From Acidicapsa ligni (GTDB taxonomy: Bacteria; Acidobacteriota; Terriglobia; Terriglobales; Acidobacteriaceae), in contig NZ_JAGSYG010000003.1 in NCBI RefSeq assembly GCF_025685655.1, positions 744,001 to 808,000 on the forward strand: a stretch of 64,000 nucleotides of DNA, read 5' to 3'. The notes below the pieces were generated by a model, which saw nothing but the letters and a program-made list of their open reading frames with translations, made no database searches and was not told the origin of the DNA. Shown here in pieces: positions 44,369-61,198 of this stretch (its first letter is position 1; every line of letters starts with the position of its first letter). The position numbers and the translations under genes are program-made.

Positions 44369-44716
44369 TGAGGCAAATCTCCCTTTTTCCTTCGCTTCGA
44401 CCGTGGAGGAATCTTATCAAGTCTTAGGATTGAAAAGAAGTGACCCGCAATCTTTGGCAGCCTGTAAGTTTGCATCCAGCATCGAAGCCCCGAACTTTGC
44501 CCTTAGCATTTGCCCTTGCTTTTGCCGTTGCCGTTGCTTTTGCCGTTGTCGTTCTGTTTGTCATTCCCGAAGGGAATCTGCTTCATCCCGTCATCCCAAA
44601 AACACAATTCCCCAAACCAACCCAACACCCAACCTGTTGGTAGTAAGCCAGTTTGAAATTATGAGATTGACTCGGCTGAATGATTAAGGACTAGAGTAAA
44701 CAAAGAGGTGCCTGGT
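44369..44716. other. Intergenic region carrying dispersed repeat copy A
   Basis: 348 bases, without a supported gene. It contains repeat copy A (44461-44630, listed separately). The apparent 67-94 residue frames here are repeat translation (AFALAFAVAVAF) and not genes. The last 70 bases, after the repeat, hold the leader of the small membrane protein (AAGGACTAGAG and AGAGGT). Confidence 0.5.
44461..44630 (-). repeat. Modular intergenic repeat, copy A (inverted)
   Basis: Read on the minus strand: a G/T-rich head (GGTTTGGGGAATTGTGTTTT), a palindromic core (ATTCCCTTCGGGAAT; 44563-44577), GACAAACAGAA, a tail of GCAANN hexamers (about 44502-44552) and an outer flank (AAAGTTCGGGGCTTCGATGC). The order and flanks match copy C. 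Confidence 0.85.
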
Positions 44717-53303: not shown

Positions 53304-53724
53304 ATGTTGTTTGCGACAGTGCAGGTTACCTTTCTATATTTTGTTTCGATTGAACGATCATAGCGGTTTCCTGGTGGTGTTTTTAGATGCGGGCTTGTTG
53401 GGGAGCTTCTCGCGATATGGAATTTGGTGTGGTGGGTCAGGTTGGGATAATTGTTTTTTTTGTTCGGAGTAGGGGAAGGAGATTCCCTTCGGAATGACAA
53501 ACAGAACTGCAAGGGCAACGACAAAGGCTAACAGCAGATTCCCTTCGGGAATGACAGCTAGAAAGGCAACGGCTAACGGCAGATTCTCTACGGGGATTGT
53601 AGACAGAAAGACAAGGGCATGTGGATTGCAGACGAGAGGCGTGTTTCTTGTTACTTATCTGACTCTTCATACGTCTTTGTTTCAGAACCTCTCAGCATTA
53701 GGTTCTTCTGCAGGAAAAGTGGAC
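53304..53724. other. Intergenic region carrying repeat copy B
   Basis: 421 bases, mostly occupied by the three-core repeat copy B (53431-53618). The frame open through it toward 53725 is repeat translation and is not counted as coding. Upstream of 53431 there is a plain AT-rich spacer. Confidence 0.5.
53431..53618 (+). repeat. Modular intergenic repeat, copy B (three cores)
   Basis: Head GGTGGGTCAGGTTGGGATAA, then core 1 (ATTCCCTTCGGAAT, one G missing, 53482-53495), core 2 (ATTCCCTTCGGGAAT, 53538-53552) and a decayed core 3 (ATTCTCTACGGGGATT, from 53583). Hexameric GCAACG/GGCTAA tails separate them, with 45-56 bases from core to core. Confidence 0.85.
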
Positions 53725-54921: not shown

Positions 54922-55388
54922 GCGTTTTCAGATTTGCAATTGGACTATATGCCTGCTTGAAGTTTCTCGGAAGTTGATGCTTCCTTATTTGTTATTCCTG
55001 AAAACGACGTTGTCCTAAAACGCTGATCTGATCTGTCAACCACGTACTCGGTATGCTCCTGTCCATCTTTGGGTGGAATGCAAGGGGCTTTTCTTTGCTT
55101 AGTATCAGGGTTGAGCTACTTTTTTGTGGTGGGTCGGATTTGGGGAATTGTGCTTCTGTTGGGAGTGGGAGAAGCAGATTCCCTTCGGGAATGACAGACA
55201 GAACTGCAACGGCAAATGCAAATGCAAGGGCAAAAGCAAGGGCGACGGCAGGAGCTTGGGACAGGAGCAAAGTTCTGAACTTCTATGCTGTATGCAAGTT
55301 GGGCCACTGTTTACTTTTTGTTGGGTTTTGTCTGGTGCTGGTGCTGGTGCGACAATCGTAGTAGATTGCGTGGGGTTATGGATTTCTT
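54922..55388. other. Intergenic region carrying repeat copy C
   Basis: 467 bases ahead of ccmF, mostly repeat copy C (55128-55306). The 92-residue minus-strand frame at 54992-55270 (AFALAFAFAVAV) is a translation of the hexamer tail, not a gene. The 80 bases directly before ccmF hold its leader; GTGGGGTT is the only purine-rich stretch. Confidence 0.5.
55128..55306 (+). repeat. Modular intergenic repeat, copy C
   Basis: This is the most complete copy in + orientation: head GGTGGGTCGGATTTGGGG, GAAGCAG, palindromic core ATTCCCTTCGGGAAT (55178-55192), GACAGACAGAA, then about eleven hexamers GCAAAT/GCAAGG/GCGACG, and an outer flank AAAGTTCTGAACTTCTATGC that matches copy A. Confidence 0.9.
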
Positions 55389-57461
55389 ATGGCGGCATTT
55401 GGGGCGTTTGCTCTTCTAATTGCGTTGGTGCTGGCTGCTTATAACCTGGTGGCTGGTGGGGTTGCGCTGCGGTTGCTGGCGGTTGGCGGGCGGGCACGAA
55501 TTGCGCCGGAGCGACTGGCGGAGACGGCTCGGCGGGCTGGTATTGCTGGTTTTTTTGCGATAATGGCGGCGGCGTTTGCGCTCGTTTGGTCGGTGTTTCA
55601 CAACGACTTTACGATTGAGTACATTGTCGAGCACTCGAACCGTGCTTTGCCTGCGGCTTACAAGTTTGCTGCGTTGTGGAGTGGGCAGGAGGGTTCGCTC
55701 CTGCTCTGGGCTTCGCTGCTGGCGATCTATGGGTTTGTGCTGCGGGTGCGGCATCACTCGGATGTGAAGCTGCATGCTTATGCGGGGACGATTCTGGCCG
55801 GGGTGCAGGTCTTCTTTCTTCTGCTGCTGAACTTTGCTGCGCCGCCATTTTCCGGGGTGCGTGGGGGGATTGCGCCTCCGGATGGAAATGGGTTGAATCC
55901 TCTATTGCAGTATCCGGAGATGGTGATTCATCCGCCGATGCTGTACCTGGGGTATGTGGGATTTTCGGTGCCGTTTGCGTTTGCGCTGGGCGCGCTGATG
56001 ATGCGGTATCCGGGTGAGAAGTGGATTCACATTACGCGGCGCTGGACGATGGCTACGTGGATGTTTCTGACGATCGGGATTTTCCTTGGAATGCACTGGG
56101 CGTATGCGGTGCTGGGCTGGGGCGGGTACTGGGGTTGGGATCCGGTGGAGAATGCTTCGCTGATGCCGTGGTTAACGGGTACGGCGTTTCTGCATTCGGT
56201 GATGATGCAGGAGAAGCGCGGAATGATGAAGAGCTGGAATGTCTGGCTCATCTTCGCGACGTTTCTGCTGACGCTGCTGGGGACGCTGCTTACGCGCGCG
56301 GGGCTGGTGAGTTCGGTGCATGCGTTTGCACAGTCTTCAATTGGCGACTGGTTTGTCGGGTTCATGGTGATTGTGCTGGCAGTTTGCTTGTTCACATACA
56401 TTCTGCAGCGGGATCATTTGAAGAGCGAGCACCAGATGGAATCACTGGTCAGCCGCGAGTCGAGTTTTCTCTTCAACAATCTTGTGCTGCTGGCGGCCTG
56501 CTTCACGATTCTTTGGGGGACGCTGTTCCCGGTGCTTTCGGAGTATTTTGAAGGGACGAAGAAGACGGTTGCGGGGGCTTACTACTCGCATGTGGCGATT
56601 CCGATTGGGGTGTTTCTGCTGTTCCTGACCGGGGTTGGGCCGCTGCTGGCGTGGAGAGCTTCTTCGTTCAAGAGCCTGCGGAAGAACTTTGTGCTGCCGG
56701 GGATTGCGTTCCTGGCAACGGTGGTGGTGTGCATCGCTGCCGGGCTGAAGCCGTGGGCGGATGAGGGTATTTTTTATTCGACGATGACCTTTGCGCTGGG
56801 CGTGGCGGTGGCTACGGCGATCTGCTCGGAGTTTTTGCGCGGGGCGGGTGTGTTGCATCGGCAGACGGGTAAGAATTTCGCGGCTTCGACGGTGCTGCTG
56901 GTGCGCAGGAGTACGCGGAGATATGGCGGGTACATTGTTCACCTGGGGCTGGTGGTGATCTTTATCGGGTTCGCGGGATATGCCTTCAATCGCAGTGCGG
57001 AGAAGGAAATGGCGGTGGGCAGCAAGATGGAGATTGGCCCGTATACGCTGGTGAACCTGGGCAATACGGAAGAGTCGAACGCGAATTACGATACGGAGTT
57101 TTCTCAACTAGATGTGTTTGAGAATGGGAAGAAGATTCTGGACCAGCCGATGTCTCCGGAGAAGCGGGTTTACCTGGTGAATGGGCAGCCGCAGACGATG
57201 GTGGCAAATCACTCGACGCTGCGGTGGGATCTGTACGTGGTGTATGAGGGCAAGAATCCTGACACAGGGCTGCCGATCATCAAGGCGTTTTTGAATCCGC
57301 TGGTGACCTGGATCTGGATTGGGCTGGTGGTTGTGGTGTTTGGCACGCTGGTGGCGCTGGTGCCGAGTCTCAGTCCGGTGCGGGCGGTGGTGGCGGTGCC
57401 TTCTTCGACAGGACCTTTGCCGGGAGCTGCGGCGGTCAGGGCGACGGGAGGCGGCAATTGA
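55389..57461 (+). CDS. ccmF: Cytochrome c haem lyase subunit CcmF
   Basis: 690 residues, about 15 hydrophobic helices. The tryptophan-rich haem-handling WWD region is 'WGGYWGWDPVENASLMPWLTGTAFLHS' (about 240-266). Flanking His-bearing periplasmic motifs are 'YPEMVIHPPMLYLGYVG' (near 180) and 'SVHAFAQSSIGDWFVG' (near 306), and 'YGGYIVHLGLVVIFIGFAGYAF' lies late in the protein. It joins haem to apocytochrome with CcmH. The last 60 residues (LVPSLSPVRAVVAVPSSTGP) form a loose tail. ccmH follows with a TGATG overlap. Confidence 0.96.
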   Translation: MAAFGAFALLIALVLAAYNLVAGGVALRLLAVGGRARIAPERLAETARRAGIAGFFAIMAAAFALVWSVFHNDFTIEYIVEHSNRALPAAYKFAALWSGQEGSLLLWASLLAIYGFVLRVRHHSDVKLHAYAGTILAGVQVFFLLLLNFAAPPFSGVRGGIAPPDGNGLNPLLQYPEMVIHPPMLYLGYVGFSVPFAFALGALMMRYPGEKWIHITRRWTMATWMFLTIGIFLGMHWAYAVLGWGGYWGWDPVENASLMPWLTGTAFLHSVMMQEKRGMMKSWNVWLIFATFLLTLLGTLLTRAGLVSSVHAFAQSSIGDWFVGFMVIVLAVCLFTYILQRDHLKSEHQMESLVSRESSFLFNNLVLLAACFTILWGTLFPVLSEYFEGTKKTVAGAYYSHVAIPIGVFLLFLTGVGPLLAWRASSFKSLRKNFVLPGIAFLATVVVCIAAGLKPWADEGIFYSTMTFALGVAVATAICSEFLRGAGVLHRQTGKNFAASTVLLVRRSTRRYGGYIVHLGLVVIFIGFAGYAFNRSAEKEMAVGSKMEIGPYTLVNLGNTEESNANYDTEFSQLDVFENGKKILDQPMSPEKRVYLVNGQPQTMVANHSTLRWDLYVVYEGKNPDTGLPIIKAFLNPLVTWIWIGLVVVVFGTLVALVPSLSPVRAVVAVPSSTGPLPGAAAVRATGGGN

Positions 57462-57973
57462 TGCTCGCTGGGCGGCTGTACAAAATGATCTCTTCGCGAT
57501 TGCTGCTTGGGGTGCTGGTGGCTTCGGTGGTTTGTTTTTCGCTGGGGGCTACGGACCCGACGGAACACTTCAACAAGCTGGGTAACAAGCTGATGTGTAC
57601 CTGCGGGTGCGCACAGTCGTTGCTGCTCTGCGACCATGAGGGCTGTCCTTCGCGTGGGCAGGAGATGGACGATCTGCGCAGCGGAATCAATAGCGGGCAG
57701 AGCGACGAGGCTATCCTGCAGGGCTTTGTCGGGCGGTATGGAACGGTGGTGCTGGCGGCGCCGACGACGCATGGATTTGATTTGCTGGCGTGGATCATGC
57801 CGTTTGCGGTGGCGCTGGTGGCGTTGCTGGGAACGATCTTCCTAGTGCGGCATTGGGCGGCACAGCAGCCTAAGCTGGCTGACCATGCTTCGCTGAGCCC
57901 GGCGCAGGCGAGGGCCGAGGATGAGATGCGGGAACGAATTCGCCGGGAGACCGGAACGGATGGGGGAGTTTAA
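57461..57973 (+). CDS. ccmH: Cytochrome c maturation thiol-reductase subunit CcmH
   Basis: 170 residues from ATG 57461, whose A is the last base of the ccmF stop (TGATG). A signal/anchor (MISSRLLLGVLVASVVCFSLGA) precedes the redox domain 'KLMCTCGCAQSLLLCDHEGCPSRGQEMDDLRSGINSGQSDEAILQGFVGRYG' with the CTCGC pair plus extra cysteines. A second helix (WIMPFAVALVALLGTIFLV) anchors it. It keeps the apocytochrome CXXCH thiols reduced for CcmF. The motif is the C-x-C-G-C type found in delta-proteobacterial and acidobacterial CcmH, not the LRCxxC of E. coli. Confidence 0.93.
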   Translation: MLAGRLYKMISSRLLLGVLVASVVCFSLGATDPTEHFNKLGNKLMCTCGCAQSLLLCDHEGCPSRGQEMDDLRSGINSGQSDEAILQGFVGRYGTVVLAAPTTHGFDLLAWIMPFAVALVALLGTIFLVRHWAAQQPKLADHASLSPAQARAEDEMRERIRRETGTDGGV

Positions 57974-57975
57974 AT

Positions 57976-58260
57976 ATGTCTAGCGACGCGGGTGTAATTC
58001 TCGGGATTGTGCTTTTTCTGGCGCTGTTTCTGTACATTTTGTGGCCGGAGAAGTCGGCTGCGGTGCAACGGGAGAAGACTCGGCTGGATTTTCTGGAAGA
58101 GTTGAAGGATCAGATCTACGCCAATCTGCGGGATTTGAATTTTGAGTTTCAGGCGGGGAAATATCCGCAGGAAGATTATGCGGCGCAGCGGGCGATCTTG
58201 GAGAAAGAAGCTGCTACGGTTCTGGCGGAGATGGATTTGCTGGGGCGGGTTCGGGTTTAG
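57976..58260 (+). CDS. Small CcmI-like protein
   Basis: 94 residues: one membrane helix (VILGIVLFLALFLYILW) and a cytoplasmic coiled segment 'REKTRLDFLEELKDQIYANLRDLNFEFQAGKYPQEDYAAQRAILEKEAATVLAEMD'. The pattern (L-E-L-KDQIYANLRDL-F-AGKYP-EDY-R-LE-EA) is the N-terminal CcmI/CycH-like region, without the TPR that full CcmI has. It is directly behind ccmH (2-base gap). It shares its coiled motif with the end of the next gene (residues about 380-431). Confidence 0.85.
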   Translation: MSSDAGVILGIVLFLALFLYILWPEKSAAVQREKTRLDFLEELKDQIYANLRDLNFEFQAGKYPQEDYAAQRAILEKEAATVLAEMDLLGRVRV

Positions 58261-58420
58261 TTTTTCTTTCTGTTCCTAGATGTAAAGGCCTGGGTGAAGC
58301 AGATTCCCTTCGGGAATGACAGACAGAAAAGCAAGTGCAGAACAGAACAAACAAAAGGCTGAAAAGCAAGTACAGAACAGGTTCCATAGCAAGTACGGAA
58401 CAGACAGAAGGCACGTACGG
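58245..58420 (+). repeat. Modular intergenic repeat, copy D
   Basis: Core ATTCCCTTCGGGAAT (58303-58317) is preceded by GTGAAGCAG and followed by GACAGACAGAAAAGCAAG. The hexamer tail is diverged, with GCAAGT/ACAGAAC units repeating three times (58325-58415). The G-rich head GGGCGGGTTCGGGTTTAG overlaps the last codons and stop of the CcmI-like gene. Confidence 0.8.
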
Positions 58421-58483
58421 AGTTGTTATGCCTGCCTGGTGGTTGAAGCTGGAGAAAAGATTGTTGCGAGGATTGATACATTG

Positions 58484-59779
58484 ATGCGATTTACTTCTTT
58501 TTCTTTGCGGGCGGTGGCTCTGCTGGTGTTGGCTGCGGGCACGTTTGCGATGGCCGATTCGATTGATGGCACGGTTACGAACAAGACCAATGGCAAGCCT
58601 TCGGTGGGCGATAAGGTTACGCTGCTGAGCCTTTCGGCGGGGCTGGATGAGGTGGGGACGGCGAAGACGGATGCTCGCGGGCATTTCACGCTGAACCGGC
58701 CTACGGCTGCGCCTTATTTGATCAAGGTGGAGCACCAGAAGGGCGCTTACTTCAAGAACGTGCCGCCTAATGTTACTTCGGTAGAGATTACGGTTTATGA
58801 CGTGGCGACGAAGGTCGAGGGGGTTTCGACTGAGGCGGATGTGCTGCGTGTCGAGGCCGATAGCGGGCAATTGAAGGTGACGGAGAACTACTTCGTTAAG
58901 AACGTCTCTTCTCCGCCTCGCACGGAGTCGAGTGAGCATACGTACGAAGTAGTGATGCCTGCAGATGCGGTGCTGGATGGTGCGGCGACGGTGGGGCCGA
59001 GCGGGATGCCGCTGGCGGCTACTCCGGACCCGGTTACGCCGAAGGGGCATTATGCATTTTCGTTCCCGATTCGCCCGAATGAGGGAGACCAGGGGACGCG
59101 CTTTCAGTTGAGCTATCACGTGCCTTACTCGGGCAGCTACAAGTTCACGCCGAAGGTGATGCAGGATACGGACAACCTGGCGGTGATGGTGCCGAAGGGC
59201 ATGAAGTTCGAGCCGGGAGCGGGGACCAGCTATCAGACGGTTCCTCCGGATGGGACGGATGGACAGACGTTCCTGGTGCGGGGCGTGAAGCCGGGCGAGC
59301 CGCTGGAGTTTGCGATTTCCGGCACTGGAACCTGGCCGCGTGAGGCACAAGGTGGCGGTGCGGGGATGGCCGGTGGTCCGCAGGGGCCGCAGGTGGGCGG
59401 GGATGCTGCGCCGCAAGGTGGTCCGAATGGGGCGCCGGGCGGTGGTTTGGGGAATCCTATCGATACTCCTGACCCGTTGAGCAAGTACAAGTATTGGATT
59501 CTGGGTGCGCTGGCACTGGTGTTAGCTGCTGCGGCGGCGTTTCTGCTGAAGAAGCCGGCGGGGGAAGTTGCTGTTGCTCCGCCTGCTGCGCCGGAGCCAC
59601 AGATTGCTGCTTTCGCTGTACCTGTGGAGAGCAAGCGTCAGTTGTTGCTGGAGGCGCTTAAGGAGGAGCTGTTCGCGATTGAGAGTGAGAAAATTGCGGG
59701 CAAACTTTCTCCGGAAGAGTATGTGGATTTGAAGGCGGCGCTGGAGACGGTTTTACGGCGGGCTTTGGGTCGGAGTTAG
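58484..59779 (+). CDS. Envelope protein with carboxypeptidase-regulatory-like domain and CcmI-like tail
   Basis: 431 residues from ATG 58484 (MRFTSFSLRAVALLVLAAGTF), where a signal peptide begins; the frame is open upstream only through repeat copy D. Residues 25-105 form a carboxypeptidase-regulatory-like/beta-sandwich domain ('DGTVTNKTNGKPSVGDKVTLL', 'TDARGHFTLNRP'), followed by a beta-rich middle and a Gly/Pro-rich segment (about 285-330: GGAGMAGGPQG.QVGG). A membrane helix (YWILGALALVLAAAAAFLL) leads to a cytoplasmic tail 'KRQLLLEALKEELFAIESEKIAGKLSPEEYVDLKAALETVLRRAL'. It follows the ccm genes and probably belongs to their operon. Confidence 0.82.
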   Translation: MRFTSFSLRAVALLVLAAGTFAMADSIDGTVTNKTNGKPSVGDKVTLLSLSAGLDEVGTAKTDARGHFTLNRPTAAPYLIKVEHQKGAYFKNVPPNVTSVEITVYDVATKVEGVSTEADVLRVEADSGQLKVTENYFVKNVSSPPRTESSEHTYEVVMPADAVLDGAATVGPSGMPLAATPDPVTPKGHYAFSFPIRPNEGDQGTRFQLSYHVPYSGSYKFTPKVMQDTDNLAVMVPKGMKFEPGAGTSYQTVPPDGTDGQTFLVRGVKPGEPLEFAISGTGTWPREAQGGGAGMAGGPQGPQVGGDAAPQGGPNGAPGGGLGNPIDTPDPLSKYKYWILGALALVLAAAAAFLLKKPAGEVAVAPPAAPEPQIAAFAVPVESKRQLLLEALKEELFAIESEKIAGKLSPEEYVDLKAALETVLRRALGRS

Positions 59780-59836: not shown

Positions 59837-60337
59837 ATGAAGACGCTGATTCGGACTTTGTTGATGCTTTCGTTGATTGTCTGGCTGGGAGCGGAGATTT
59901 TCTTCCCGGTGGTGGCGGCGATTACGTTCATGAACCTGGCTCCCGATACGCATGAGGCCGGGTTGATCGTCGGGGCTTTATTGCGGATCATGCATGTGAT
60001 GGGGCTGGTGTCCGGGATCGTGCTGGTGGCGTTGCTGGCGCTGGCTCCGGCGTGGGGTGTGTTCAAGCCACGGACGGAGCTGGCTTCTATAGGGCTGGTG
60101 CTGGTGATGATGGGGCTTACGGCTTATTCGCAGTTTGGAATTCTTCCGGCGATGGATCGGGATCGAGCGGCGGCGGGCGGGGTGGTCGATGCCGCGGCTC
60201 ACGATAATCCGGCGCGAGTGCACTTTGAGTTGCTGCATCGCCGGAGCGAGCATGTGGAAGTTGGCGTGTTGCTGCTGGGGATTGTCGTGGTGGCGCTGAT
60301 TGCGAATGCGGAGACGGCTGCGGCTGCGCGGGTGTGA
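59837..60337 (+). CDS. DUF4149 membrane protein
   Basis: 166 residues from ATG 59837; a longer frame adds 15 residues that are part of a shared intergenic sequence. Four helices are visible: 'LIRTLLMLSLIVWLGAEIFFPVVAAITF', 'GALLRIMHVMGLVSGIVLVALLALAP', 'ASIGLVLVMMGLTAYSQFGILPAM' and 'EVGVLLLGIVVVALIANAE'. The DUF4149 hallmarks are 'WLGAEIFFPVVAAITF' and 'ARVHFELLHRRSEHVE' (R..F..LH..S). Function unknown. Confidence 0.85.
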   Translation: MKTLIRTLLMLSLIVWLGAEIFFPVVAAITFMNLAPDTHEAGLIVGALLRIMHVMGLVSGIVLVALLALAPAWGVFKPRTELASIGLVLVMMGLTAYSQFGILPAMDRDRAAAGGVVDAAAHDNPARVHFELLHRRSEHVEVGVLLLGIVVVALIANAETAAAARV

Positions 60338-60472
60338 TCTTAGATTAGAGAATGTTCCTGCCAGGTTTTTCTGCTGACAGGCTGTTTGATCTGCGGGGCT
60401 GAGGGCCCTGCTTCCTCCAATCCAATCTGACCGCAAGATATTGTGGTCCGAGCACGCGTAGTATTCTGACAG

Positions 60473-61198
60473 ATGCTTAAACTTTCTTTGCTGTTGGGGA
60501 CGATTGCTGCGCTGGCGGATGTGGTCGGCGGCCTGGTGCTGGTCAGGGCCAGGGGTGTGCAGCGCTATTTGCGTTATTTTGTGGCTCTTGGTGCGGGTTT
60601 TTTGATGGCTACTGCTGTCCTGGAGATGCTGCCAGAGAGTCTCAAACTGGATATGAAGCTGGCTCCGGTATTGGTGATGGCGGGGTATTGTGCGCTGCAT
60701 TTTCTGGAACACACGATTGTGGCGCATTTTCATTTTGGAGAAGAGACGCATCACGGCGAATTTGTGTCGGCGAAGACCAGCTATTCGGTGCTGGGAGGGC
60801 TGGCGGTTCATGCGCTGTTTGATGGAGTGGCGATCGGCTCGGGGTTTGCTTTGTCCGGCGCGCTGGGGATGCTGATCTTTCTGGCCATTCTGCTGCACAA
60901 GGCTCCGGAGGGGTTCACCATGGCGAGCGTGATGCTGGCCAGTGGGAAGAGCCGGACGGCGGCGTTTTTCTCGGCTGTGGCGCTGGCTGGGGCTACTTTG
61001 CTGGGAGTCCTGGTGATCGGGATGGTTCCGCAACTGGTGCGGTATGGGCTACCGGTTTCGGCGGGAGTGGCGCTGTATGTGGCGGCTACGGACCTGGTGC
61101 CGGAGGTGAATCGGGAGCCGGGGATCAAGATGGCGCTGGTGTTCTTTGCCGGGGTGGCTGGGTTTCTGTTGTTGCGAATGATTATGCCTGCGGTTTAA
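60473..61198 (+). CDS. ZIP-family metal ion transporter
   Basis: 241 residues with eight hydrophobic helices. Metal-site motifs are 'HALFDGVAIGSGFALSGA' (His and Asp of helix 4) and 'ILLHKAPEGFTMASVMLASG' (His-x3-Glu of helix 5), together with 'LEMLPESLK' and a His cluster before the first of these ('HFLEHTIVAHFHFGEETHHGEF') typical of the variable loop. Members take up or export Zn2+ and other divalent ions. No regulator is adjacent. Confidence 0.92.
   Translation: MLKLSLLLGTIAALADVVGGLVLVRARGVQRYLRYFVALGAGFLMATAVLEMLPESLKLDMKLAPVLVMAGYCALHFLEHTIVAHFHFGEETHHGEFVSAKTSYSVLGGLAVHALFDGVAIGSGFALSGALGMLIFLAILLHKAPEGFTMASVMLASGKSRTAAFFSAVALAGATLLGVLVIGMVPQLVRYGLPVSAGVALYVAATDLVPEVNREPGIKMALVFFAGVAGFLLLRMIMPAV

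Follow-up and report, generated by a model that had tools for sequence, protein, structure and literature searches.

The cytochrome c maturation factor CcmI is described in PMC3884852 as a protein with two transmembrane helices (TMs) linked by a cytoplasmic region and with a periplasmic TPR domain, the presumed binding site of the apocytochrome, and the account in PMC3601427 presents it as an enhancer that is not strictly required. In the variant known as System I*, a Cys replaces the His of CcmE (PMC3601427; PMC9084895), and about one third of the bacteria with this CxxxY-type CcmE have CcmH, according to PMC3601427. Here we analysed two neighbouring genes that follow ccmF and ccmH in a 64,000-nucleotide window of Acidicapsa ligni (Acidobacteriota; assembly GCF_025685655.1, contig NZ_JAGSYG010000003.1, positions 744,001 to 808,000 of the forward strand), encoding a protein of 94 amino acids (I94) and an envelope protein of 431 amino acids (CP431), for which a sequence-only reading had proposed a shared coiled module and a split, two-protein CcmI function. 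The features of the locus are given below in window positions; order genomes are the 100 genomes of Terriglobales that were sampled, and model confidence is the predicted local distance difference test (pLDDT) score.

55389-57461, plus strand: ccmF (haem lyase), 690 amino acids; Pfam CcmF_C 3.2e-53 and Cytochrom_C_asm 1.8e-38
57458-57973, plus strand: ccmH, 171 amino acids, TTG start; Pfam CcmH 6.4e-17
57976-58260, plus strand: I94, CcmI-like membrane protein of 94 amino acids with an N-terminal TM and a predicted cytoplasmic hairpin; in 99 of 100 order genomes; AlphaFold2 mean pLDDT 88.7; TIGR03142 matches below cut-off in the family
57982-58038, plus strand: TM of I94, model residues 3-21; helix in the AlphaFold2 model, membrane location suggested by hydrophobicity
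58081-58254, plus strand: helical hairpin of I94, helices 36-59 and 65-93; AlphaFold2, pLDDT 94-98 over residues 41-90
58306-58326, plus strand: dispersed repeat, one copy between I94 and CP431; 207 genome copies at up to 2 mismatches, 0 for the backwards control
58484-59779, plus strand: CP431, envelope protein of 431 amino acids; in 100 of 100 order genomes; AlphaFold2 mean pLDDT 84.4
58556-58798, plus strand: CP431 domain 1, residues 25-105, transthyretin/CarboxypepD_reg-like beta sandwich; Pfam CarboxypepD_reg and fold match to 3e8v
58811-59326, plus strand: CP431 domain 2, residues 110-281, fold like that of ribophorin I and the M1 aminopeptidase N-terminal domain; fold match to 8pn9_E
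59480-59548, plus strand: TM of CP431, residues 333-355; AlphaFold2
59624-59770, plus strand: predicted cytoplasmic hairpin of CP431 (helices 381-404 and 410-429), homologous to the I94 hairpin; profile comparison, AlphaFold2, and TIGR03142 in six other genomes

Profile comparison and structure prediction confirmed that I94 and CP431 carry a common TM-hairpin module of the CcmI N-terminal type. Families were built from the order genomes and, after removal of near-duplicates, 45 of 66 I94 and 39 of 64 CP431 sequences were kept. When the two families were compared with hhalign, they aligned with a probability of 93.6 and an E-value of 2e-7, and the aligned core placed I94 residues 50-78 (NLRDLNFEFQAGKYPQEDY...) on CP431 residues 395-423 (ELFAIESEKIAGKLSPEEY...). 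Both motifs quoted in the sequence-only reading were found in the proteins and did align, with a correction of the register by four residues: the LEELK and LEALK look-alikes are offset by that distance in the profile alignment, and the half that aligns is NLRDLNFE..AGK...EDY. The outcome that the sequence-only reading had named as a refutation, a failure of the motifs to align in profile searches, thus did not occur. Residues N50, L51, D53, L54, F56, E57, G61 and K62 were invariant in the I94 family alignment. With the TM removed from both proteins, the I94 hairpin matched the CP431 tail with a score of 33.8 (probability 91.5); 200 column-permuted I94 hairpin profiles peaked at a score of 20.1 (probability 26), the reversed profile scored 9.3, the periplasmic part of CP431 gave no match, and 43 windows taken from CcmF, CcmH and CP431 before its tail peaked at 12.7 against I94 and at 11.0 against the tail.

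The same relation was seen farther afield, in 40 regions (the distant set) that were picked from the matches of a phylum scan and represent other acidobacterial families by one to several regions each. Comparison of 34 of the 38 distant I94 sequences (L100, L113, L138 and L139 were omitted) with the 11 CP431 tails judged to bear the hairpin gave probabilities of 93-97. In other families the alignments spanned 60-78 columns, TM included. The order-level I94 model directly matched the TM and hairpin of CP431 homologues in L103 (3.1e-4), L108 (2.4e-4) and L132 (6.3e-4), and weakly the tail of the L107 homologue (E 0.045), these E-values being calculated for a set size of 3000; at genome scale, its cross-match to the CP431 tail had an E-value of 3.3e-4.

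The relation to CcmI was evaluated with the NCBI model TIGR03142, whose curated cut-off is 29.3 bits. Below this cut-off, the model matched 14 of the 45 I94 members (best 4.5e-4), 9 of the 39 CP431 members (best 1.2e-3) and 8 of 10 distant I94 homologues (best 2.4e-5, best score 24.6 bits). Over the 100 order genomes it produced nine matches at E <= 1e-3: six in CP431 tails (G097, G072, G080, G095, G081 and G022), two in I94 (G025 and G085) and one elsewhere (G079). The affinity to CcmI that had been suggested was thus recovered below cut-off in both families, with eight of the nine whole-genome matches lying in these two genes, and we regard the whole-genome result as the strongest independent support because the model is the work of others and derives from different sequences. 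A canonical CcmI scoring above the cut-off was found in none of the 100 order genomes. The best match of the model in the A. ligni genome (C6:265129, E 0.0065) lies in a region that looked conjugative by eye, and it was taken as a chance match.

The AlphaFold2 models showed a TM and a two-helix hairpin in both proteins. I94 stops after the hairpin, with neither a second TM nor a TPR domain in its sequence or predicted model; no Pfam family reached its gathering score with it, the fold search with its model had no match at E <= 0.001 and otherwise gave only coiled coils and similar helical fragments, and the search of solved structures gave nothing useful. CP431 was predicted to consist of a signal peptide, the two beta domains, a disordered Gly/Pro linker (residues 290-327), a TM that is the only one besides the signal peptide, a second disordered linker (residues 360-380) and the hairpin, for which the pLDDT was 77-95 by ten-residue blocks. 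The carboxypeptidase-regulatory-like domain that had been recognised in CP431 was corroborated both by a CarboxypepD_reg match, present at E <= 1 in all 39 family members (28.9 bits in the window protein, below the gathering score of 32.3), and by the transthyretin-like predicted fold: the search of solved structures with CP431 returned transthyretin-like proteins, and domain 1 superimposed on 3e8v with a VIA Z of 12.4 and a root-mean-square deviation (rmsd) of 1.9 over 79 aligned residues. This is a widespread all-purpose domain and is functionally unspecific. Domain 2 shares its fold with ribophorin I (8pn9_E; VIA Z 12.4, rmsd 3.3, 158 aligned, 13% identity) and with the N-terminal domain of M1 aminopeptidases (ERAP1, 6q4r; Z 11.8); CP431 lacks the catalytic domain of the latter, and the fold by itself says nothing of function. 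The CP431 of the window contains no cysteine, as is the case for 35 of 57 family members including it, which argues against a thiol-redox role of its own. Mean column identity in CP431 was highest, among the parts measured, in the TM (0.78), followed by the hairpin (0.68) and the two periplasmic domains (0.67 and 0.62). According to the signal peptide and the charge pattern, the beta domains of CP431 would be periplasmic and both hairpins cytoplasmic, so the earlier placement of the motif on the cytoplasmic side of a single TM is supported as a prediction.

Both proteins resemble CcmI/CycH of Rhodobacter capsulatus and Pseudomonas aeruginosa in the predicted succession of a TM and a cytoplasmic helical region, and their genes, like that of CcmI, lie beside ccmF and ccmH. 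Unlike CcmI, both are devoid of the second TM and of the TPR domain, which weighs against a split CcmI in the strict sense, and the periplasmic part of CP431 precedes its TM and is predicted to be all beta; no TPR was among the Pfam matches listed for the two families. Many distant I94 homologues (for instance in L103, L104, L121 and L125) have the same TM and hairpin in the same slot after ccmF/ccmH and end in a CxxC...CxxC zinc ribbon, which is absent from the I94 of the window and from its listed Terriglobales relatives and may be a mark of the ancestral form. A link between the ribbon and the CP431 tail was considered and set aside: by eye, the two showed no visible association, the ribbon being present in I94 at 8 of the 11 tail-bearing loci and at 8 of the 10 tail-less ones.

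CP431 was found in all 100 order genomes and I94 in 99, the exception being a 73%-complete genome. The two genes lie within 1.3 kb on the same strand in 89 of the 100 genomes, 2.4-4.1 kb apart in four and far apart in five; in one genome each gene is at a contig end, and one has no I94 match. For these distances, weak hits were set aside, namely nine to CP431 with E 2e-5 to 1e-3, which fall within large open reading frames (ORFs) other than CP431, and four to I94 with E above 0.02, including the CP431 tail of G097 at 0.025; six fragments of split CP431 were also excluded. Among titled genome records, the best 80 of 353 matches were scanned and both genes were present in 79 of these loci, L200 showing no CP431. 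Hosts among the matches listed include Terriglobus roseus, Edaphobacter and Granulicella, and all are acidobacterial but one, titled Rhodanobacteraceae (L156), which we take, without confirmation, to be a mislabelled bin. Terriglobus roseus DSM 18391 has two ccmF-ccmH-I94-CP431 loci (L161 and L162) 460 kb apart on one chromosome, with 88% base identity over 9.3 kb. In genome G066, a second CP431 (L057 3827-5689, plus strand) lies directly 3' of a 190-amino-acid CcmF-like fragment and looks like the remnant of a second ccm locus. No match to CP431 at E <= 1e-3 was obtained in a plasmid collection.

In the distant regions the usual order is ccmE-ccmF-(ccmH)-I94-[CP431]-ccmA-ccmB-ccmC, and in L100 and L139 ccmE comes after CP431; ccmA, ccmB and ccmC of L103 were confirmed by Pfam. 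In 19 of the 40 regions CP431 is flanked by I94 on one side and by ccmA or ccmE on the other, with recognition only at E 5e-5 to 6.5e-3 in six of them, and in L124, L131, L133 and L116 the CP431 slot is occupied by an ORF of 350-455 amino acids that is unassigned or barely matching. The link to ccm that had been read from the window, where I94 directly follows ccmF-ccmH, is thus extended by the position of CP431 inside the ccm operon of other families. In several acidobacterial families, ccmF and ccmH matches fall on one ORF of 826-953 amino acids (L118, L119, L121, L125 and L130-L133), and this fusion is in its own right an argument for a CcmFH complex.

The remaining ccm genes of A. ligni are on another contig, in the order ccmE-ccmA-(one other ORF)-ccmB-ccmC. 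The ORF between ccmA and ccmB (169 amino acids; L222 932-1441, plus strand) is presumably a YbaK/Cys-tRNA deacylase-like protein. The ABC ATPase ORF taken as ccmA and the ccmC-like ORF lie beside ccmE and ccmB and, when used as queries, found ccmA and ccmC of the distant operons. CcmE (C6:82387) has CASKY instead of HxxxY, and CxxxY was seen in 30 of the 31 CcmE ORFs of the distant regions, the remaining one being cut off by the end of the locus. Because its haem-binding His is replaced by Cys, this CcmE identifies the system as System I*, and its set of CcmA, CcmB, CcmC, CcmE and CcmF is complete in the A. ligni genome. The CxxxY-type CcmE is the same as that of System I* in Desulfovibrio and archaea, and section 8 of PMC3601427 mentions no CP431-like subunit.

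At the locus itself, I94 starts 2 bases past the ccmH stop codon and is separated from CP431 by a spacer of 223 bp. A CP431 ORF of 487 amino acids is listed from 58316, a start that falls inside a dispersed repeat, CCCTTCGGGAATGACAGACAG, whose copy upstream of 58484 gives the ORF a false N-terminal extension; the true start is likely to be the ATG at 58484, near which most CP431 homologues begin to align and from which a signal peptide was recognised by eye. The repeat has four copies in the window at up to 3 mismatches (44554-44574 on the minus strand; 53541-53561, 55181-55201 and 58306-58326 on the plus strand), with 0 expected. RNA folding of the spacer gave no structure signal (z 0.48), and a promoter scan found 1 site, against 2.5 in shuffled sequences. 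CP431 is followed at 59837-61198 on the plus strand by two genes, whose products match Pfam DUF4149 (a membrane protein, 9.1e-10) and the ZIP zinc transporters (1.6e-24); neither showed any sign of belonging to the ccm group.

Taken together, these results make a two-protein CcmI function plausible. The reading that we favour, at about even odds, is that I94 is a TPR-less CcmI-like subunit that works with CcmFH together with CP431, as a second subunit bearing the same module. I94 would then be a stripped-down acidobacterial CcmI-like subunit that supplies the first TM and the cytoplasmic loop of CcmI, a core subunit retained where CP431 is missing, and CP431 would be the second subunit, with a diverged copy of the TM-hairpin placed behind a pair of periplasmic beta domains, that is, in the opposite order to CcmI. 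Both hairpins may help to assemble I94 and CP431 with CcmF/CcmH, and a possible I94-CP431 pair would bring together the elements found in CcmI, namely a periplasmic domain, a cytoplasmic hairpin and two TMs. In the neighbourhood of the haem lyase, the periplasmic part of CP431 might contact CcmE or the apocytochrome. That its surface holds the apocytochrome is a guess; ribophorin I is part of a different enzyme whose substrates are exported proteins, and the likeness to it makes the guess attractive by analogy without proving it. A broader proposal is tentative, and we hold it with less confidence: Acidobacteria would perform the CcmI step without a TPR protein, I94 and CP431 together making up one bipartite subunit of the CcmFH haem lyase, with a transthyretin plus ribophorin I-like beta module holding the apocytochrome in the place of the TPR, and CP431 having arisen by duplication of the hairpin module inside an ancestral ccm operon.

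Several observations weigh against a joint role of the two proteins as CcmI. TIGR03142 never exceeded its cut-off in the order genomes (best 28.3 versus 29.3 bits), in four of its six CP431-tail matches the alignment continues beyond the stop codon, and in A. ligni itself it found neither of the two genes at E <= 10 nor either protein at E <= 1. The repeat-bearing spacer makes co-transcription of I94 and CP431 uncertain. CP431 is far from ccmFH in five of the 100 order genomes, and the flanks searched in four of these five encode penicillin amidase, M48, M50 and other non-ccm proteins; extra CP431 copies in G041 (L046 and L048) and G081 (L050) have no ccmF, ccmH or I94 match in their regions, and the extra copy in G066 adjoins the CcmF-like fragment noted above. 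An I94 followed by ccmA with no recognised CP431 is common in the phylum (for example in L117, L123, L127, L128, L135 and L137). Finally, when the last 150 residues of 21 CP431-homologue ORFs of at least 300 amino acids (E < 1e-2) from the distant set were inspected by eye, 10 of them ended soon after the TM, and the second hairpin is thus not needed everywhere. The split CcmI of the sequence-only reading consequently stands in part: the shared module, the affinity to CcmI and the link to ccm speak for it, whereas the missing second TM and TPR domain, the failure of the model on the window pair, and the I94 genes lacking a recognised CP431, tail-less CP431 and displaced CP431 speak against it.

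The displaced genes, the extra copies away from ccm and the missing tails are what would be expected if I94 alone were CcmI-like and CP431 were a general envelope protein with an acquired TM-hairpin docking tail, linked to ccm by inherited gene order and having another role, in envelope stability or quality control. The wider spread of I94 points the same way: among 347 genomes of the phylum, I94 was found in 135 (E <= 0.01) and CP431 in 61 (E <= 1e-13), counts obtained at different thresholds. However, CP431 lies within the ccm operon in the 19 distant regions already described, and none of the 61 genomes with a strong CP431 match lacks I94, which was detected in 60 by the phylum scan and in the last (G156) at its ccm locus. 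We therefore think this explanation rather unlikely, though it deserves serious attention.

It is considerably less probable that a generic docking motif of two helices, like that of GvpG, arose separately in the two proteins and has no relation to CcmI. Weak Pfam GvpG matches in 25 of the 39 CP431 (best 0.0055) and 17 of the 45 I94 members (best 0.026), a weak CCDC-167 match in 21 of the 45 I94 members (best 0.0012) and the shortness of the core aligned in order-level profiles (25-29 columns) are consistent with such an origin, but the alignment in other families runs through the TM, the CcmI model picks out I94 and CP431 genome-wide in the order, and the two lie side by side in a single operon. 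An action of CP431 on the haem-delivery side (CcmABC-CcmE), its beta domains docking holo-CcmE or CcmC instead of CP431 working with CcmFH, would fit the ccmA-ccmB-ccmC genes that follow I94 and CP431 in 17 of the 40 distant regions (also in L105, with I94 on another contig) and the ccmE and then ccmABC that follow them in L100 and L139, but it is improbable given that CP431 of A. ligni lies beside ccmFH-I94 with ccmE and ccmB elsewhere, that it mostly adjoins I94 in the order, and that its tail is CcmI-like.

In the open-access literature, to which our search was confined, nothing in print was found on the I94-CP431 pair. The presentation of the apocytochrome to CcmF in System I, although not a settled question, is usually ascribed to the TPR domain of CcmI. 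The ccm locus of many acidobacteria appears to encode no such domain but, in its place, a conserved beta-domain protein with a CcmI-type membrane module. If CP431 works with CcmFH, the membrane docking of CcmI would be separable from substrate binding, and the acidobacterial proteins would offer a second, independent solution for comparison.

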